Notes under the pieces: generated by a model
The model's database searches: none
What the model was told of the DNA's origin: nothing
The model's input: the letters and a program-made list of their open reading frames with translations, nothing else
Made by a program: the position numbers and the translations under genes
Assembly: GCF_009730915.1 (NCBI RefSeq)
Contig: NC_052482.1
Location: forward strand, 434,001-498,000
Length of the DNA: 64,000 nt
Reading direction: 5' to 3'
Origin: Dioscorea cayenensis subsp. rotundata
Taxonomy: Eukaryota > Streptophyta > Magnoliopsida > Dioscoreales > Dioscoreaceae
In this document: piece after piece, positions 5,514-49,272 of the stretch
How positions within the stretch are numbered: the first letter of the stretch is position 1
How the letters are laid out: each line of letters opens with the position of its first letter

Positions 5514-6380
5514 AAACACATACTTATATTCTTTCTTCCAAAGAACTAAAACCACAGATATATGCATAGATGACTGAAGGAAACAAACATTAAACTAGCC
5601 AAACAAACACAAAACCACAAACCGTACTATTCAACGATACCTAAATATAACCATCTCTAACACAAACTAATATACTTTCTTCAAAAGAACTAAAACAACA
5701 AATATATGCATAGATGACTGAAGGAAACAAACATTAAACTAGCCAAACAAACACAAAGCCACAAACCGTACTATTCAACGATACCTAAATATAACCATCT
5801 CTAACACAAACTAATATACTTTCTTCAAAAGAACTAAAACAACAAATATATGCATAGATAACTGAAGGAAACAAACATTAAACTAGTCAAACAAACACAA
5901 AGCCACAGACCATAATATTCAACCATACCTATATATAACCATCTCTAACACAAACTAATATACTTTCTTCAAAAGAACTAAAACAACAAATATATGCATA
6001 GATGACTGAAGAAAACAAACATTAAACTAGCCAAACAAACACAAAGCCACATACCGTACTATTCAACGATACCTAAATATAACCATCTCCAACACATACT
6101 TATATACTTTCTTCAAAAGAACTAAAACAACAAATATATGTATAGATGACTGAAGGAAACAAACATTAAACTAGTCAAACGAACACAAAGCCACAAACCA
6201 TAATATTCAACCAAACCTAAATATAAACATCTCCAACACATACTTATATACTTTCTTCAAAAGAACTAAAACCACAAATATATGCATAGATGACTGAAGA
6301 AAACAAACATTAAACCAGCCAAACAAACACAAAGTCACAAACCATACTATTCAACCATACCTAAATATAAACATCTCCAA
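5514..6380. repeat. 144-bp tandem array, six copies
   Basis: The phrase 'gatgactgaaggaaacaaac' (one variant base in some copies) recurs with its GACT at 5572, 5716, 5860, 6004, 6148 and 6292, an exact 144-base period. All copies are the same length and differ only by substitutions, so the array expanded recently or is being homogenised. It lies 140 bases past the 3' end of the exonuclease gene. No reading frame stays open through it. Confidence 0.93.
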
Positions 6381-6516: not shown

Positions 6517-7194
6517 TTACTCGGACAAGAGCCTGCAACCCAAGTAGTAAGAAGCACAAGCATCAATGCAAGCATACTCAATTTGGGCATAACTAAGAAC
6601 CCTAGATTCCCAATTGCTCAGAGTCACACGCCTCGGCTTCACCATTGTTAACCCTAGAATCTCCTTCGCATAACCCTTCAATCCCAAGCTCCGGCGATTG
6701 TCCAACCCTAAATAACTCCAGCACAATGGATCCAGATCAACAGGGTTGCCGCATTGGAGATCGTAATCATCAAAAAGCTTAGAAACATCAGCCATGATCC
6801 CAACTCCGACGAAAGAGATTGAGGGATCAGAGAGGAAGTCTCTGAGGATGCGGGGAATGGAATCCATGTGCTGGAGCTGGAGAATGAGGCATTGGTTCGA
6901 GAAGCAGAGCTGGAGAGTGGCGACCAGGTTGGAGGAGCCGGCGGTGAAGTTTGGGCGCCATTCGCAGTCGAGGCCGACGATCGGGGTTTGGAGATTGCGG
7001 AGGCTGGGGGTCAGGGATCGGAGCCAGACGGCGGTGGAGGAGCCGGAGGAGGTCACCGTCGTCACGATGACTTCGCCGGCGAAGTCGATTTCGTGGACGG
7101 TGGTCGCCGGCGGAGTGGGCCTGCGAGTTCCTGCCCACATTCTGCTTCTTCGATGAACCAACAAAGAAAGGTTTAGGGTTTTTAATTTATTCAT
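6517..7194 (-). CDS. Werner-type 3'-5' exonuclease domain protein (DEDDy)
   Basis: Intronless gene for a small 3'-5' exonuclease of the DnaQ-like DEDDy class, like the stand-alone Werner-exonuclease proteins of plants. All catalytic motifs are present: motif I 'GLDCEW' (Asp76, Glu78), motif II 'VGVGIMADVSKL' (Asp136), and motif III 'SYAQIEYACIDA' with Tyr207 and Asp211 in the Y-x3-D spacing. No helicase domain follows, as is normal in plants, where helicase and exonuclease are separate genes. Two starts are possible: the ATG at 7194 (225 aa) and the ATG at 7140 (207 aa, starting Met-Trp-Ala-Gly). The first 18 residues are poor in recognisable signal, so the second may be the real one. The 5' half is GC-rich, the 3' half less so. 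The likely role is trimming of DNA or RNA 3' ends; the substrate cannot be read from sequence. Confidence 0.88.
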   Translation of the reverse strand: MNKLKTLNLSLLVHRRSRMWAGTRRPTPPATTVHEIDFAGEVIVTTVTSSGSSTAVWLRSLTPSLRNLQTPIVGLDCEWRPNFTAGSSNLVATLQLCFSNQCLILQLQHMDSIPRILRDFLSDPSISFVGVGIMADVSKLFDDYDLQCGNPVDLDPLCWSYLGLDNRRSLGLKGYAKEILGLTMVKPRRVTLSNWESRVLSYAQIEYACIDACASYYLGCRLLSE

Positions 7195-8423
7195 TATCTG
7201 GTTTTTTTAAACTTAGGGTTTTTACCTGCATTTTTTGAAATATAATTATTTAAAATTTTAAATATATAAAATTTTCACAATTAACTTTACATTAATTTAC
7301 TAATATTTATTGAATATCTATTATTAATATTATAAAATCCAAAAAAAAATTAACACCTAAATAATTTCAAATAATATTGGTTTTTTTTACAAAAAATGAG
7401 TGTGAAATCTTGAGTGCAAGTTTTACTGGATTCAATGTTGATAATTAGTACCCAATTGTGGATGTGAGTTTGTTTCACAAACTCTTTATCTTATGTTAGA
7501 TAATTAATTTTCTATATAAAGGCACACCAATCATATATATATATATATATATATATGAGTAATTTAGAGATGTCTAGACACATCCACAGTCATCATCGAA
7601 TAGTAATTTGACAGCAATAATTATCATAAACAGTATTAAAAAAACATTCGATAGTATCACACAGTATTTGTAAACAGCAAAAAAATATATATATAACGTA
7701 TATAAACAAACAGTTTTTAGATAATAATTTAACAATTATAATTAAACATCTCTGGTAAACAGTTATCTAGGAACATCCTGCAATACCTTATCTATATATA
7801 TATATATATCACACAAAAGTTCAGTGCATGATTTATGCAACCCTCACATGGTAATACAGTTCATATGTTTTTTTTTAATTATTTAATACTATTGTGACGT
7901 GGCAATACACACTAATTGGTCTTATACATGACAAGTGACACACTGTTTTAATTTTTTTAAATTACTAGCTAGCGTGACATAACTCGGGATAAAAGATGTG
8001 ACGTGGTATTTTTTTTTTTATACTAGAAATAAATTTTAATTTTACATTTATTAAAAATTTCAGAAAATATTTTAGATTTTAATATTTTTGTATAAAAGTA
8101 AATAAATAAAAGAATTACTTAAAATTATAAAAAAAATAAAAATTTTGAAAATTTATAAAAGTTATAGAAGTTTTAGTAAATTTCAATAGTGTTTATTATT
8201 TTTTTAGATCTCATAAATTTTTAGAATTTCTAATATTATTTATTCTATAAAATGATATAAATATAAATATAAATATAAATATATATATTATTTATTCTTA
8301 CAACTAAAAATTAAAATTTATTTTTAAAAACAAATGGCAGGTGGCAGCTGATATGGCAAGTTATCTCATGCAAGTTATATGAAAAACATAAAATAAATAA
8401 ATAAATAAATAATGAGGCATTAA
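7195..8423. other. AT-rich upstream/intergenic DNA
   Basis: Upstream region of the exonuclease gene. AGGGTTT-type telo-boxes lie within 40 bases of its start. From about 7556 to 7785 there is a weak terminal-inverted arrangement ('gatgtctaga' against 'ctaggaacatc'), which may be a degenerate MITE. No gene is seen. Confidence 0.5.
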
Positions 8424-11389: not shown

Positions 11390-13221
11390 GAAGAGAAGAG
11401 AAGATAAGAAGCTCAAATGGAAGTTCATGAGCAGATGATATTGGGACCATATATGTGTAAAAGATATTGAAAACAAATGCATGTGAGTTTATTCTTTCTA
11501 GGTTCTCTATCCTTGTCTTATTAGGCAGCTTTGTTCAAACTTCAGCACAAGCCTTTGCTTTTGGAGCTACTAATGCTGCCCCTTTGACTAAATTACAGCA
11601 TATAAATTAATTATGTTCATACTCTAAACAAATCAATCTTAATATTCTAATTAAAAAAGAAGAGTGTTACAAAGTGTGCTTTCATCATGTTGCTTTCAGC
11701 TAAAGCTAAAAAAAAAAAATGGTGGAGAATATGATGAAGAATAACAAAGTGCAGTGCAGTTGGGAACTTGGACAGAAGATAAGGATTGATAGAGAAATGA
11801 CACATTCAGTGATGAGTAGGTCCAAGTTTTGGAATTTGCTTATTATGAATAGATGCTACTTACAAGAGTAAAGAAACAAGAACCATATCTTCACCCACAC
11901 ACACACACACACACACACATGACTTATCTTTGCATATATGACAATGCATGTTGTCAGAAAAGACTCTTCTAAGTTGCACCAGAAGATTTAATTTGCAGGT
12001 AGAAAGGAAAAAAGAATTCTAGATTGAGAACAAACAACTGAAGGCAATAATAAAGATATGCAAAAACTAGAGACAAAAATGTATAACTGATAGTCAACAG
12101 AAAAAGAAGGTTCAAAAGATAACCAACACTGAGCAACAAAATTTGCAGTCTAGTAAACTAGATCATTGTTTTTGTCTACCCATAATTTCTTTCTTATCTC
12201 TTACTTTAATATTTTTTTTTTTAATTTCATTATTCTTCTACATATGAACTAAACTACAAAGCAAGCTGAGTTGAAAAGTAAAACTATACAATAAAAACTT
12301 CTTAAAGAGACAAGAATGTCAACCAATCCTTAGAACAAAATATATCCTAATTAAACTCTCTAAACACAAATAAACTGAAAAGTATTAGATTTAGCTGTTC
12401 CACCAAACAAAGTTTCTAATGAGGACTAGGCTTTATTTCAATGAATCAAGCAATTAAGCTAACAAAGTTGACACCTTTCAAATATATTTGGGAAATAAAT
12501 GCTTCACAATAATCAGTATACGTACAAAGCATGCAACAGCACCTACTTCATGCATTCAACTCTCTTGAACATTAATCATATCCAAACTCTCATGAAGCTA
12601 GCTAGTTACTCCTAGAAACCCTCATTTACTCCTCCTACTCCCAACATTCTCATATATATATATATATACATCATAAATATTAACTCTCCACTCCATCCTC
12701 AAGGACACTGTCTTCTTTTCATAACTTCCAAACCAAATGCAACAACTATTCCTTTAAGAGAAGAGAGCTACACAAACACGTATATATATATATAGACAAC
12801 TAAAGACCACAAAAACAAAAACAAAACAAAAATGGAAACTTTATCATCGTTCCACCCTGCCATTTTCCCTAAATTCCCAATCCTAGGGTTAGGGTTAGGG
12901 TTAGGGTTTCCTTTTCTCTCCCAATCCCTCTTCGCCATGATTTCAGTGCAAAACAAAAAACCCTAATTTCTTCATCATTTAAACACAAACATATGATTTA
13001 GATTAATATTTAATTAATACAACAAGTTGTAGTAGTACATCATGATGATGATCAGAGAGGTTCGTCGCTATTTGTACATCAAATGGACGGCCGTGATCGG
13101 CTGTCCTCCTAGTCAGTAATTACCTAATTAAAACTCCAAAAATAAAGAAATTAAACGATTTAGAAGCGATAGGCGAAATGACGAACGTACCACTGGTCAC
13201 ACACACTCTCTCTCTCTCTCT
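10932..13221. other. Intergenic DNA downstream of the WRKY gene
   Basis: No gene is supported. It contains a (CA)n run at 11892-11919, a (TA)n run near 11357-11385, and at 12886-12909 a four-unit TTAGGG string that is part of a chance ORF. The last 200 bases probably hold the WRKY 3' UTR, including a (CT)n run at 13203-13224. Confidence 0.55.
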
Positions 13222-33847: not shown

Positions 33848-36800
33848 ATGAAAAATATAATTATGTTGCCCATCTTCCTCTTATTCATCTTAAGCTATAT
33901 TTCATGTATTCATCTTGTCATCGGTCAAGTTTCGGTGACGAAAAACATTTTCGTTGATCAATCAGGTCACGGTGACTTCACTACAATCACGGCATCGATC
34001 AACGCCATTCCTTCGAATAACAATCAATGGATAAGGATTCATGTCAAGGCCGGAGTTTATAAGTAATTAGTTTTAATTTTATAGTTCTTGCATGGTTCAT
34101 TACTTTGAAGAATAAATTTTTTTTTTACAAGTATTATTTATTTATTTATTTATTTGTTTGTTTGTTTTTATAGGGAGAAGGTGCAAATAGGTAGTGACAA
34201 AGGGTTCATCTTGTTGGAAGGGGAAGGGTATGAACAGACATCAGTGGAGTGGGGAGATCATACTAGTGGTGGTAGTGAAACAGATCAAACTAGTACTTTC
34301 AGGTTCTCAGGGAACAACATTGTTGTCAAATACATCTCCTTCAAGGTCTTTATCTGTTTTTAACCTTGTTATTTGTTTCTAGGGTTAGGGTTTACGGTTA
34401 GGGTTTATAAATATACATGATATAATGAAAAGCTTGAAGTAGTCATATACGGAGAACAAGATGGTTGGTGGTATTTCGGTTGATTGTTTCAATGCCAATA
34501 CTATTTTTAAGTTAGGGTTAGGTTATGCGTATACTCGCTTCGGTTTTTTTTTACTTGTTAATTTTACCTAAATACACAAATTAAAAAATTAAGTTGATTC
34601 AAATTAGTTGGTAATCTAAAAATTATAAAAGTTATATTAATTTTTCAAGATTATTTTATTTAAAATATATTTTACAAAATGTGTAATTGAATATAATTTA
34701 TTAGAAATTATAGAACTACATTAAATATAAAAGCTAAATGTAGAAACAAATATTTAATGTATCACAAATTTTCTAATTAAACAAATTAAAAAGAAAAAAA
34801 AAATCTCTAAAATAAGACAGGTAAAAAAGACCAAAGAGAGTATATGATAAAATGAAAACTTGTACTCATTCATGCATTGCGGGATAAGTTCAGTGGTGGT
34901 TTTTTAGTTGTTTGTTACATTGCTATTTCTTTTTTTAGGGCTAAAATTAGGGTTACACTAAGGTTTATATTTATATAATATAATGAAAGGTTGATTTCAT
35001 GCATGCAGAACAAGATCAATGGTGATTATTCAGCTGTTTAATTGGTTTCCAATGCCAATCTAAGGTTTAGGGTTAGGGTTATGGTTTATATATTAATATA
35101 TGTATGTATGTAGATATGTATGATATAACGATAGCTTGAATTCATGCATGCAAAGCAAGATCAATGGTGCTATTTCAGCTATTAATTTGTTTCCAATGCT
35201 AATCTTGTTTTCAGATTTTAGTTAGGGTTAGGGTTAGGGTTTATATATGCAGAGCAAGATCAATGGTGGTTTTTCAGCTATTTCCAATGCTAATATCTTG
35301 TTTTCATGCTCAAGATTAGGGTTAGGGTTAGGGTTTATATATATGCAGAGCAAGATCAATGGTGGTTTTTCAGCTATTTCCAATGCTAATATCTTGTTTT
35401 CATGCTCAAGATTAGGGTTAGGGTTAGGGTTTATATATATGCAGAGCAAGATCAATGGTGGTTTTTCAGCTATTTCCAATGCTAATATCTTGTTTTCATG
35501 CTCAAGATTAGGGTTAGGGTTAGGGTTTATATATGCAGAGCAAGATCAATGGTGGTTTTTCAGCTATTTCCAATGCTAATATCTTGTTTTCATGCTCAAG
35601 ATTAGGGTTAGGGTTAGGGTTTATATATGATATAATAAAAGCTTGAATTTTCATCTGCATGCATGCATGCATGCAGAACACGTTCAATGGTGGAAGTCAA
35701 TTAGGGCAAGCAGTGGCAGCACTTGTAGAAGGAGACATGATCTCATTTTATAACTCTGGTTTCTATGGAATCCAAGACACTCTCTGTGATTTCAGAGGTC
35801 GCCATTACTACAAGAACTCTTACATTCAAGGTGCCGTTGACTTTATCTGGGGCTCAGCTCAATCCATCTTTGAGGTCAACCACTCAATTAATTAATTAAT
35901 TACTTAATTTCATATTTATAATGATAATAATTTGTTTTTTTTTTTTTTTAATTTATTAGGGTTGTAATATTTGTAGCTATGGAGAAGGAATAGATCATGG
36001 ATATATAACAGCACAAGGGAGAGAAACTGCTTCAGGCCCTGGTGGGTTTGTTTTTAAGTCATGTAATGTGACTGGATCACTTGAGACATTCTTAGGAAGA
36101 GCTTGGACACCTTATTCAATGGTCATTTTTTATCAGACTTTCATGTTTAACATTATATTCCCTCAAGGTTGGGATGCTTTCAATGCTGCTCGTGGCAAAG
36201 AGTAAGTTTTTACTTTTACTTTTACTTTTATTTTTTTTAATTAATTAATTTTTTTTTATTTATTTAATGTCCATTTTTGCTAAAACCTCTAAATCTATTG
36301 GTACTGAGTTTCTTGCTGTTTGTTTCGGAGAGAATCCAATATCGAACCCCCAAACCCAAGTAAGGTGAAAGCACAATTGTTTATTGAGTTTAGAGATAGC
36401 AAAAACCTAATTGACCCGTGATTTTCACCCGATCCACCACTAACGGGGTGGGGCAGATTTAGTTTTTCCTTACCCGCCCCGCCTAGCCCTGCACCGCTAA
36501 TAATTTAACTTATTATAAATATTATATAATGTAGGGGTAAATGACTTTTTTTTTAAGATTTTAATAAATTTTTTATGAGCTTGTTTTTATAAATATATGT
36601 TTTATAAAAAACCTATTTTATAAATATTTTTTTAGGAATTTTAGTTATTTATTTGTAACTATGAACAGGACAGCACAACATTGGGCAGGGCGGGCTGTTT
36701 ATGAAAAAAAAAATGGGGCGAGGATGGTAGAGGCGTGCCCCACCCCCGCCTCGTCCCATTATCATCCCTAGTTGAGTTTGTTTGATGCCCGTGCACATTT

Positions 36801-37058
36801 TTGTCCATATTTTAATTATTTAATAAATTTTATGGAGAAAGATTTTCATTGATTATTTTTTATTTGTTAAATTATTTATTTATTTATTTTTTAAATTTCA
36901 GGTTGTTGACATACTATGTGGAGTTTGAGTGTTCAGGACCAGGATCAAATTCATCTGAAAGAGTGAATTGGCTTAAGAAACCCACATATAACCAATTGAA
37001 GCAATACATTGACATCTCCTTCATTGATAAAGAAGGATGGCTGTCTCAACAACCCTAA
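33848..37058 (+). CDS. Pectinesterase, short type without pro-domain
   Basis: Five exons: 33848-34062, 34174-34345, 35677-35874, 35960-36201 and 36902-37058, GT/AG throughout, giving 327 aa. An in-frame ATG at 33815 would add 11 residues. The N-terminus is a hydrophobic signal peptide (about residues 5-26) for secretion to the cell wall. There is no pectinesterase-inhibitor pro-region, so it belongs to the short class with QRT1-like members. Catalytic features are present: Gln in 'GQAVA', Asp in 'GIQDTL', Asp in 'GAVDFIWG' (many members have FIFG), and Arg/Trp in 'LGRAW'. It should remove methyl esters from homogalacturonan. Intron 2 (1.33 kb) is filled by copies of its own 3' splice-site region. 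The gene converges with the phytochrome gene, stop codons 400 bases apart. Confidence 0.88.
34415..35680 (+). repeat. Minisatellite in pectinesterase intron 2, derived from the intron 2/exon 3 border
   Basis: The most regular part (about 35213-35630) has units of 96, 96 and 94 bases, seen from 'gcagagcaagatcaatggtgg' starting at 35249, 35345, 35441 and 35535. Each unit carries three TTAGGG blocks and 'tttatatatatgcag'. Older diverged copies start near 34450, 34890, 35007 and 35150. The true acceptor and exon 3 start (gcag/aacacgttcaatggtgg at 35673) match the unit at 18 of 21 positions, and the 'gatataataaaagcttgaat' lead-in also recurs upstream. So the intron grew by serial duplication of its own 3' end plus the exon edge. 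Confidence 0.9.
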
Positions 37059-46546: not shown

Positions 46547-49272
46547 CTAAGCCTTAGAGATCCTATCCAGCATTTTCTTTGTTTTCGAGCTCAATATGAT
46601 TTGATCCTCCTTTATTCGTTGCTGAAGTGAAGGCTCTTTCTTACCAGCTGCTGCATACGTTCGAATCAGCGCATCATATGCTCTCGAATCCAAACGTTTG
46701 AACTGCTTCAAAATAGCACAAAACTCTTCTGCCCCCTTTACATCCTTTGCTTCCTCGTAATTTTTCAGGAACATTTTCACATGGTCTCCATTTAACTTCC
46801 ATTTGTCTGGCTTCACATGTGAACTCGCTTCCTTCAACCACTTCAGAGCAGGCCCCATCTCCTGTTTCTTCAAATGGTAATCTATGAATAACTCAGCCGT
46901 CTTGAAATCAAATTGGGAAACTCTCAATGAAGCTCCTACCTCAAGTGATTCAGCATCTTTGATCATATCTTTCCTAAGGTAGGCCGCTATCATCAGATTC
47001 ATCAATCTTACATCATAGGCCACATGAACAGATTCCCATTCCTTAAAGCACCGTTCCATGCCATCAAGATCATCGAGTTTATTTAATGCCTGAAGAATGA
47101 TAAGATAGCTCATGTTGGTGAGCTTTGGAAAGGTAGTCTTCAAAGTGTTCCACACCCTATTGACCTCCGCTAGGTTGCCAGTGCTTGCATATAAAGTCAT
47201 TAAAAAATGGTACGGTTCCCTGTCACAGCTGTCGATGAGTTGCTCGAGTTTTTTGAGGGCCGCCTCTGCTTTCTCAAAAAGACCAGCAGCATTGTATATG
47301 CCTGCCAGGGTGCTGTATGCAGACCAAGTTAAAGTGATATCAGATGCCTCTTCCATATCCTGCGCAACTTCTTCAACAGAATCAATGTCGCCCTTGGAGG
47401 CATAGCTATTCATCAGGATACAGTACGAGAAGTTATCAGGCGCAATATTCTCTGATTTCATCTCCTCAAATTGTCTTTGGGCTTTCTCAGGCTGTCCTAG
47501 TTTCATATAAAAGGCCATCATATTATTTTGAACCAGGTTGTTTGAAGCTAAACCGAGTTTCTTCATCTTTTCATAGAGGGGAATAGCCTTCTCTGGCAGC
47601 TTTTCATTGCAATAGCAGTTAAGGAGAGCTCCATATGTTTGTTGCTTCTTAGCAGCCTCCGGAAGGCTGGAAAAGTACAACTCTGCTGACTCAATACCCT
47701 TGACTTTTGAAACGAGATCTAAATATATTGCATGATTTGTAATAGACAAGTTCATTCCTTTAGTCTTTACCATCCAATCAACCACCTAACAATGCAAGCA
47801 ATCAAGCAGCTATAAGAACAACTATGTAAACATTTTGGGCAAATATTATACTTGCCACTACAAAAAACAACAATACCAAGAGGAAAACACCGTTCTCTCA
47901 TTATCCAGAGTTCTGATAATGAATTGATTCTATTAATCCATTGACCTTGTGTGTCCTTTTTATTAAATTTGAGAGGCATTTCTATCTAATTAGGCAAATG
48001 ATGTTCATTCAGACTTGCATTTTTTGGTGAGGGGTACTTCAAAGCCTCTAACAAAGCGTAATTGGAAGATGGGAAGCACGCGTTCTTAGATTTTCCACAA
48101 TAAATGGCATGCTAGTCACTTCACTGTATGTGCTAGGGATGATTGCAAACACTCATCCCTGCCAATAATTTTTTTTTTTAAGAAAAGAAAATCTATACCA
48201 AGCCTTTAAGATATTTTATATGCAGACCATTTTCAGTTTAATTACAGCAAACTAAGAAGAACAATTGATAAATGAAGTAGACATGAAGAAAAAAAACCTT
48301 TTTTAGTCAAAAACTAGCATTTCTTACAAGCTTCCAATCAGAAAAATCTATGATCTCTACATCAACGGCCCTCTTCATCAAAACAACCAAACAAGTAAGA
48401 TAGTGCTTCACAATTGCTAGCATGCAAAACACTCAAAAAGAAGCTAATTATAATGAATTTAATATGAAAAAAAGTCCCTTTCACAAAAGTTCTGGCATTT
48501 CTATTTCTTACAAGCTTCCAATCAGACAAAACCCTAATCTCTACATCAATATCACTCTTCATCAACAACCAGCCAGCAGGTGACATTTCACAATCATTAA
48601 ACTTCAAAACACTCAGAAAGCAGCCATTTTATCATGAATTTAATAAGAAAAAAAAAAATCCTTCCACTAAAAATACAGCATTCCTTACAAGCTTCCAATC
48701 AGATAAATCACTGATCTCTACATCAATGTTCCCCTTCATCAATAATCCAACACCAAGATGGCATTTCACAACCGTTAAAATTCAAACATACAAATAATTA
48801 TCATGAAACAAAAAAGATTGAACATTTACCAAATGAATCCATTGACCAAACACAAAGTGCCTTCATACATAATAATCTCTAATACCATCATATAAAACGA
48901 ATTATATAAACAAACCATTAAATCTAACATCATGTAAGCATCTCAAATCCAATTAAAACCAATAACCAATCATCAAAACAACAATTCAAATGGTAATACC
49001 TCAAGGGCGCTGCCGTATTTGCCATACTTGCGTAGTTCCTTAACTTGCTTGATGAGCTCGGGGGAAGTGACGGTCTTCCCCTCCCGCACCCACTTATTCA
49101 GCACCTTCACCACGCTCCCGTCCGGCGCGCCACCCAGCGCCGACAACCTCCGGTAAAGCGGCCTCAAATCCTTCTTCACCACCGCCGGTGCCGAAGCCAG
49201 CGACGACGCAGTGCTCAGCCGCCTAACCGCAGCAAGCGCCAATCTTAGCGCTCGGCTGGGCATCCTCTCCAT
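46547..49272 (-). CDS. P-class PPR protein, mitochondrial type (At4g01990-like)
   Basis: Two exons on the minus strand, 49272-49000 and 47785-46547, joined by GT/AG after 'YGSALE', giving 503 aa. The first ~30 residues (Met-Glu-Arg-Met-Pro-Ser-Arg..., then 'RRLSTASSLASA') are Arg/Ser/Ala-rich without acidic residues past position 2 and fit a mitochondrial presequence. About ten P-type pentatricopeptide repeats follow, e.g. 'TYGALLNCYCNEKLPEKAIPLYEKM'-like units (shown only in part) and 'NFSYCILMNSYASKGDIDSV'. There is no E or DYW extension, so it is an RNA stability, processing or translation factor rather than an editing deaminase. Exon 1 is GC-rich. Length and ending resemble Arabidopsis At4g01990/At1g02370. 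The intron (1.2 kb) has repeats of a 'tttcttacaagcttccaatcaga' phrase near 48320, 48510 and 48685. Confidence 0.92.

Follow-up and report, generated by a model that had tools for sequence, protein, structure and literature searches.

Tandem copies of an intron–exon border within intron 2 of a yam pectinesterase gene

The second intron of a pectinesterase gene in the yam Dioscorea cayenensis subsp. rotundata contains, ahead of its 3′ splice site, a series of sequences that resemble this splice site together with the start of the exon that follows it. The locus therefore raises the question of whether the intron has grown by duplication of its own border, or whether the array has some other source and its likeness to the exon came about in another way. 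The gene was analysed within a window of 64,000 nucleotides (contig NC_052482.1, positions 434,001 to 498,000), to which all coordinates refer, and against the 584-Mb assembly.

Anatomy of the gene and of the array in intron 2

The pectinesterase gene consists of five exons (Table 1), which when joined give an open frame of 327 amino acids, and this frame stays open when the last, real acceptor of intron 2 is used. A profile search matched the pectinesterase domain PF01095 (E=1.1e-62) over profile positions 1-295 of 298, i.e. a match to the whole domain. The start chosen for exon 1 is one of several in-frame ATGs, and of the three in-frame options for the junction of exons 1 and 2 the GT-AG version was picked. 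For intron 2, the coordinates given by the initial annotation proved to be exact and to cover the whole intron.

Table 1. Coordinates of the pectinesterase exons, intron 2 and the units found within it (positions in the window).
Feature	Position	Strand	Remarks
Exon 1 of pectinesterase	33848..34062	+	model
Exon 2 of pectinesterase	34174..34345	+	ends ...YISFK, then GT, phase 0
Intron 2	34346..35676	+	1,331 bp; the array and one MITE make up most of the length
C1, old unit	34383..34511	+	exon-like tag starts at 34455
Dispersed repeat, Stowaway-like MITE	34534..34840	+	307 bp; TA target duplication; interrupts C2
C2, right part, old unit	34843..34946	+	tag at 34883; acceptor position without AG
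C3, old unit	34947..35065	+	TGCAG, then AACAAGATCAATGGTG; tag at 35009
C4, old unit	35066..35221	+	tag at 35154; CAG replaced by CAA
C5, young short unit	35222..35315	+	94 bp; tag at 35253
C6, young short unit	35316..35411	+	96 bp; tag at 35349
C7, young short unit	35412..35507	+	96 bp; identical to C6; tag at 35445
C8, young short unit	35508..35601	+	94 bp; identical to C5; tag at 35539
C9, terminal partial unit	35602..35693	+	holds the real acceptor plus nt 1-17 of exon 3
Exon 3 of pectinesterase	35677..35874	+	begins NTFNGGSQLGQAVAAL
Exon 4 of pectinesterase	35960..36201	+	
Exon 5 of pectinesterase	36902..37058	+	includes the stop

Eight tandem copies (C1 to C8) lie within the intron and are followed by a ninth, partial copy (C9). 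A repeat search recovered eight exon-edge-like stretches in intron 2 and placed the real border in one group with several of these, which confirms the earlier count of at least eight border-like copies ahead of the real acceptor. Tandem Repeats Finder reported the young array at 35190-35628 with a period of 96 (also as 190), as well as a 25-bp run at 34383. The copies fall into two age classes. C1 to C4 are 69-84% alike in pairwise comparison, whilst C5 to C8 are 100% identical over aligned columns, differ solely by a TA indel (94 vs 96 bp) and are without the lead-in that precedes the acceptor. The terminal unit C9 is 73-74% like C5 to C8 and 79-82% like C1 to C4. There are thus several copies, homogenised on the inside, with a divergent copy at the border, an arrangement characteristic of the structures known as ‘mirages’.

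These classes also limit two motifs that had been ascribed to the units in general. The motif ‘tatatgcag’ is present in C5 to C8 (4/8) and missing from the other four copies, and the lead-in ‘gatataata..aagcttgaa’ is common to C1 to C4, in varied form, and the real acceptor, with C5 to C8 lacking it. The likeness of the real acceptor to an array unit, put at 18 of 21 positions, comes to 19/22 in a recount of tgcag plus 17 nt against the young unit.

One old unit, C2, is interrupted by a dispersed repeat that has TA at both ends and carries inverted ends. When 40 of 666 candidates were scored, relatives of this element with 77-84% identity came to light in at least 39 other places. The ends of four relatives were inspected: one starts with TACTCCCTCC and three with variants of it. 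The combination of a TA target duplication with inverted ends of the CTCCCTCCGT type, which we take to be the motif of Stowaway MITEs, is present at 34534-34840, and to judge from these features the element looks like a Stowaway MITE. When the element and one TA are removed, what remains, TATATATGATA, is the unit’s own sequence, i.e. the empty site is restored. C1 and C2 evidently adjoined each other before the MITE arrived.

Other tandem repeats occur in the window. Six copies of a 144-bp repeat (93% matches) at 5515-6377 adjoin a minus-strand open frame at 6517-7206, and a perfect TTAGGG run, like that of the array unit, lies at 12884-12908. A further tandem array, at 48318-48786 (period 184, 2.6 copies), is located in an apparent intron of a putative PPR-like gene on the minus strand. 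In a blastn comparison between this array and its gene, neither exon edge was found to be copied, the only match being one of 13 nt just inside the intron.

Likeness to exon 3 and the direction of copying

The edge of exon 3 reads AACACGTTCAATGG as it stands, the unit-like form being AACAAGATC. Its first 17 nt match the unit-derived string AACAAGATCAATGGTGG at 15/17 positions, and the tags of C1 to C8 match the same string at 14, 13, 16, 15, 16, 16, 16 and 16 of 17 positions, in that order. Against this, only two of 125,046 background 17-mers (both strands, outside 34300-35760) reach 13 and none is higher, and the best of the 1,035 17-mers that directly follow a CAG elsewhere in the window reaches 10/17. 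The lead-in and the exon edge together are collinear with C2, C3 and C4 in gapped alignments, for each of which 0/1000 dinucleotide shuffles were as good; the gaps in C3 and C4 measure 14-16 nt and fall where the real acceptor carries extra sequence. The alignment of C1 to the real border is confined to the lead-in (0/1000 shuffles as good) and that of C5 to the last 23 nt (1/1000). The comparison with shuffled sequence had been set in advance as a test of the proposed duplication, and in it the exon 3 edge was clearly closer to the units. Further into the exon, positions +18 to +80 match the five units compared no better than shuffles do (281-920 of 1000 as good), so that no more than 17 nt of exon 3 belong to the recognisable array. 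The tandem units thus span an intron–exon border of their host gene, as in mirages. That the duplicated segment included this border, as the initial annotation had proposed, is supported by the 17 exon nucleotides in register, the collinear lead-in and the short introns of the paralogues.

The paralogues were collected by a protein search of the assembly, which returned 74 matching places, four of them the gene’s own exons, and 12 regions with exon-split relatives were examined. L035 and L037 were not counted, the start of exon 3 not being resolved, and L038, L039 and L044 are without a measured intron length, the donor not having been located. The eight paralogues measured are all interrupted at this same position (five have K|NT there, two H|NM and one K|ND), by introns of 71, 75, 77, 85, 107, 113, 171 and 227 bp. 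The position is shared with relatives rather than new and absent from them; an old intron grew, and no new intron position arose.

With regard to the direction of copying, the first 17 nt were compared between copies, exon 3 and paralogues, omitting L042 as a near copy of L041. C1 to C8 match the exon edge of their own gene at 12-14 of 17 positions and that of the nearest paralogue, L034A, at 9-10 of 17; L034A is itself distant, with exon pieces 54-67% identical. For seven copies (C2 left out), agreement with the edges of the nine other paralogues is 1-7 of 17. In the comparison of single sites, C6 to C8 were left out as identical to C5 over the tag; C2 was also left out, and was added for sites 5 and 7. 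At site 5, 8/8 copies have A, with C in exon 3, L034A and 6/9 other paralogues. At site 7, A is found in 7/8 copies and T in C2, exon 3 and L034A, whilst T occurs in none and A in two of the nine other paralogue edges. The exon 3 edge is thus most likely the source, with the intron units as the copies. Site by site, support for this polarity is thin, as one or two sites carry it, and that from site 7 is weakened because C2 has the letter of the exon and the other paralogues lend none.

In the reverse order of events the array would be the older, and one of its units would have overwritten exon 3 at its start, either by gene conversion or because the acceptor moved into the last unit. Sites 6, 8 and 15 (and site 9 in three of the four units compared) are common to the units and exon 3 and differ in the nearest paralogue, as such overwriting would have it, and it can also draw on the two paralogues that have the A of the units at site 7. 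However, the intron position is common to paralogues with short introns, 5/10 paralogue edges compared start with AACAC just as exon 3 does, and at site 5 no copy has the letter on which exon 3 and the nearest paralogue agree. We consider overwriting improbable. Still harder to credit is the insertion of a transposon or dispersed satellite beside the acceptor with a likeness to the exon that is due to chance, even though one MITE does sit in intron 2 and the (TTAGGG)3 of the unit recurs at 12889 in the window. The exon match exceeds that of every 17-mer of the window outside intron 2, and the unit DNA was found at a single locus in the 584-Mb assembly, that of the pectinesterase gene, although its restriction to this locus is not absolute because the search skips very common words.

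What was duplicated may have been more than the 3′ border. In a variant of the border duplication, whose likelihood overlaps with that of the latter, the whole short intron was copied along with both exon edges, so that each unit would be a mini intron with a former donor. A part of the unit, about 40-60 nt from GGTGG to TTAGGG, has no match to exon 2 or exon 3 beyond that of shuffles, and the end of exon 2 in particular matches the unit no better than shuffles do (348-903 of 1000 as good). For the 5′ end of intron 2, the summed score against five unit middles was reached by 65/2007 T-matched controls. C2 is the sole unit to stand out when taken alone (17/2007), C1, C3, C4, C5 and the consensus being equalled by 186, 601, 313, 868 and 241 of 2007 controls, respectively. 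With TAGGG included, 3/1000 shuffles were as good for C4 and 7/1000 for C2. A match of the end of exon 2 and the first 33 nt of intron 2 to the unit middle is thus suggestive only, and we regard mini-intron units as a minority possibility. As a candidate in its own right, duplication of the whole intron was weakly supported and was set aside. Against border duplication in general, the lead-ins of C9, C3 and C4 were no closer to the intron of the nearest paralogue than many shuffles (683, 548 and 209 of 1000 as good, respectively).

Duplication of the gene’s own 3′ border remains the reading that we prefer. A segment that ended 17 nt inside exon 3 and included the 3′ end of intron 2 would have been copied into the intron by tandem duplication. 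The first units to form would be the old ones, at least four in number, one of which was then presumably split by the MITE, and a shortened unit would later have been amplified into the four near-identical copies, with copy number being altered afterwards by unequal exchange or replication slippage. We infer that one of these two processes also made the original copies. On this history, which we hold to be probable, intron 2 is a plant mirage that arose from tandem duplication of a border, was split by a MITE and grew by amplification of a short unit.

Splice signals of the copies and of the real acceptor

Each copy had been proposed to offer a decoy acceptor. An AG is indeed kept at the acceptor position in 6/8 copies, C2 and C4 being without it. 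The AG-free stretch upstream is 33 nt long at the real acceptor, 10-17 nt in the six AG-bearing copies, 17 nt in C4 and 40 nt in C2. A long AG-free stretch followed by an AG, such as marks the real acceptor, is thus found in none of the eight copies, and the proposal is to be narrowed accordingly. At the real acceptor a TTCAT loosely resembles a branch site, its A lying at -24; the underlying pattern, YTNAY, is a weak one and also occurs in C3, at -36. The T fraction of the last 18 nt before the AG is lower at the real acceptor (0.22) than in the eight copies (0.28-0.44), which counts against the real acceptor being a strong one.

When the exon 3 phase is read from any of the copies, with no internal donor, a stop is met at codon 11-109, and use of a decoy would thus probably be harmful and probably rare. 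Since the acceptors of the copies appear poor and every read-through meets a stop, splicing most likely still goes to the last border, going by the splice signals and reading frames. We infer from this that the decoys are silent. It is conceivable, though we would not call it likely, that full border copies with branch-site lead-ins came first and decayed, that deletion of the lead-in disarmed the acceptors and so freed the unit for amplification, and that the real acceptor gained its 33-nt AG-free stretch, by which the spliceosome could distinguish it from the copies.

Part of the array is also spanned by a 113-aa open frame (35238-35579), whose phase, read from C5, is that of exon 3 and which lasts up to the point where it is shifted by a 94-bp step. 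It is a consequence of the 96-bp period, and it has no Pfam match at E 0.001.

Relation to known border duplications

Under the AGGT model, duplication of an AGGT-bearing exon segment is said to create a new intron. The yam gene agrees with this model in that an internal duplication is the source of intron sequence, but it does not present a new intron derived from an AGGT exon segment.

A closer parallel already has a name, and has precedents in amphioxus. Amphioxus mirages are minisatellite-like tandem copies of intron–exon borders, found in Adh3 and in the globin genes BflGb6 and BflGb9 (PMC3087553). What is repeated in BflGb6 is an intron’s 3′ end joined to the 5′ part of the exon that follows, in units of 150-160 bp that are 81-100% alike; many mirage copies retain splice signals, and the inner units are homogenised whilst the border unit is not (PMC3087553). 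The yam intron is another mirage, sharing with those described there the tandem copies of a border, splice signals in many of them, homogenised inner units and a divergent border unit (PMC3087553). Unlike the amphioxus cases, it belongs to a plant, its exon part is only 17 nt long, its array has two age classes (69-84% alike vs essentially identical) of which the younger is without the lead-in, and one of its old units has a MITE within it.

Among plants, the potato RdRp gene acquired a new spliced intron through a single tandem duplication, which extended from the 3′ end of one intron into the beginning of the exon after it (PMC4974935). The yam pectinesterase gene resembles this case in being a plant gene whose duplicated segment takes in an intron–exon border of this same kind; it differs from the potato gene in having many copies and in that an old intron was lengthened with no new position (PMC4974935). 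In the literature searched by title and start of abstract, no plant minisatellite of an intron–exon border was found among the matches listed.

Taken together with the amphioxus cases, the yam intron indicates that minisatellites of this border type also occur outside the lancelets, and it ties the growth of an intron to duplication of the gene’s own border. Moreover, the near-identical acceptor copies within one intron form a natural series, through which the rules of acceptor choice by the spliceosome become directly testable.
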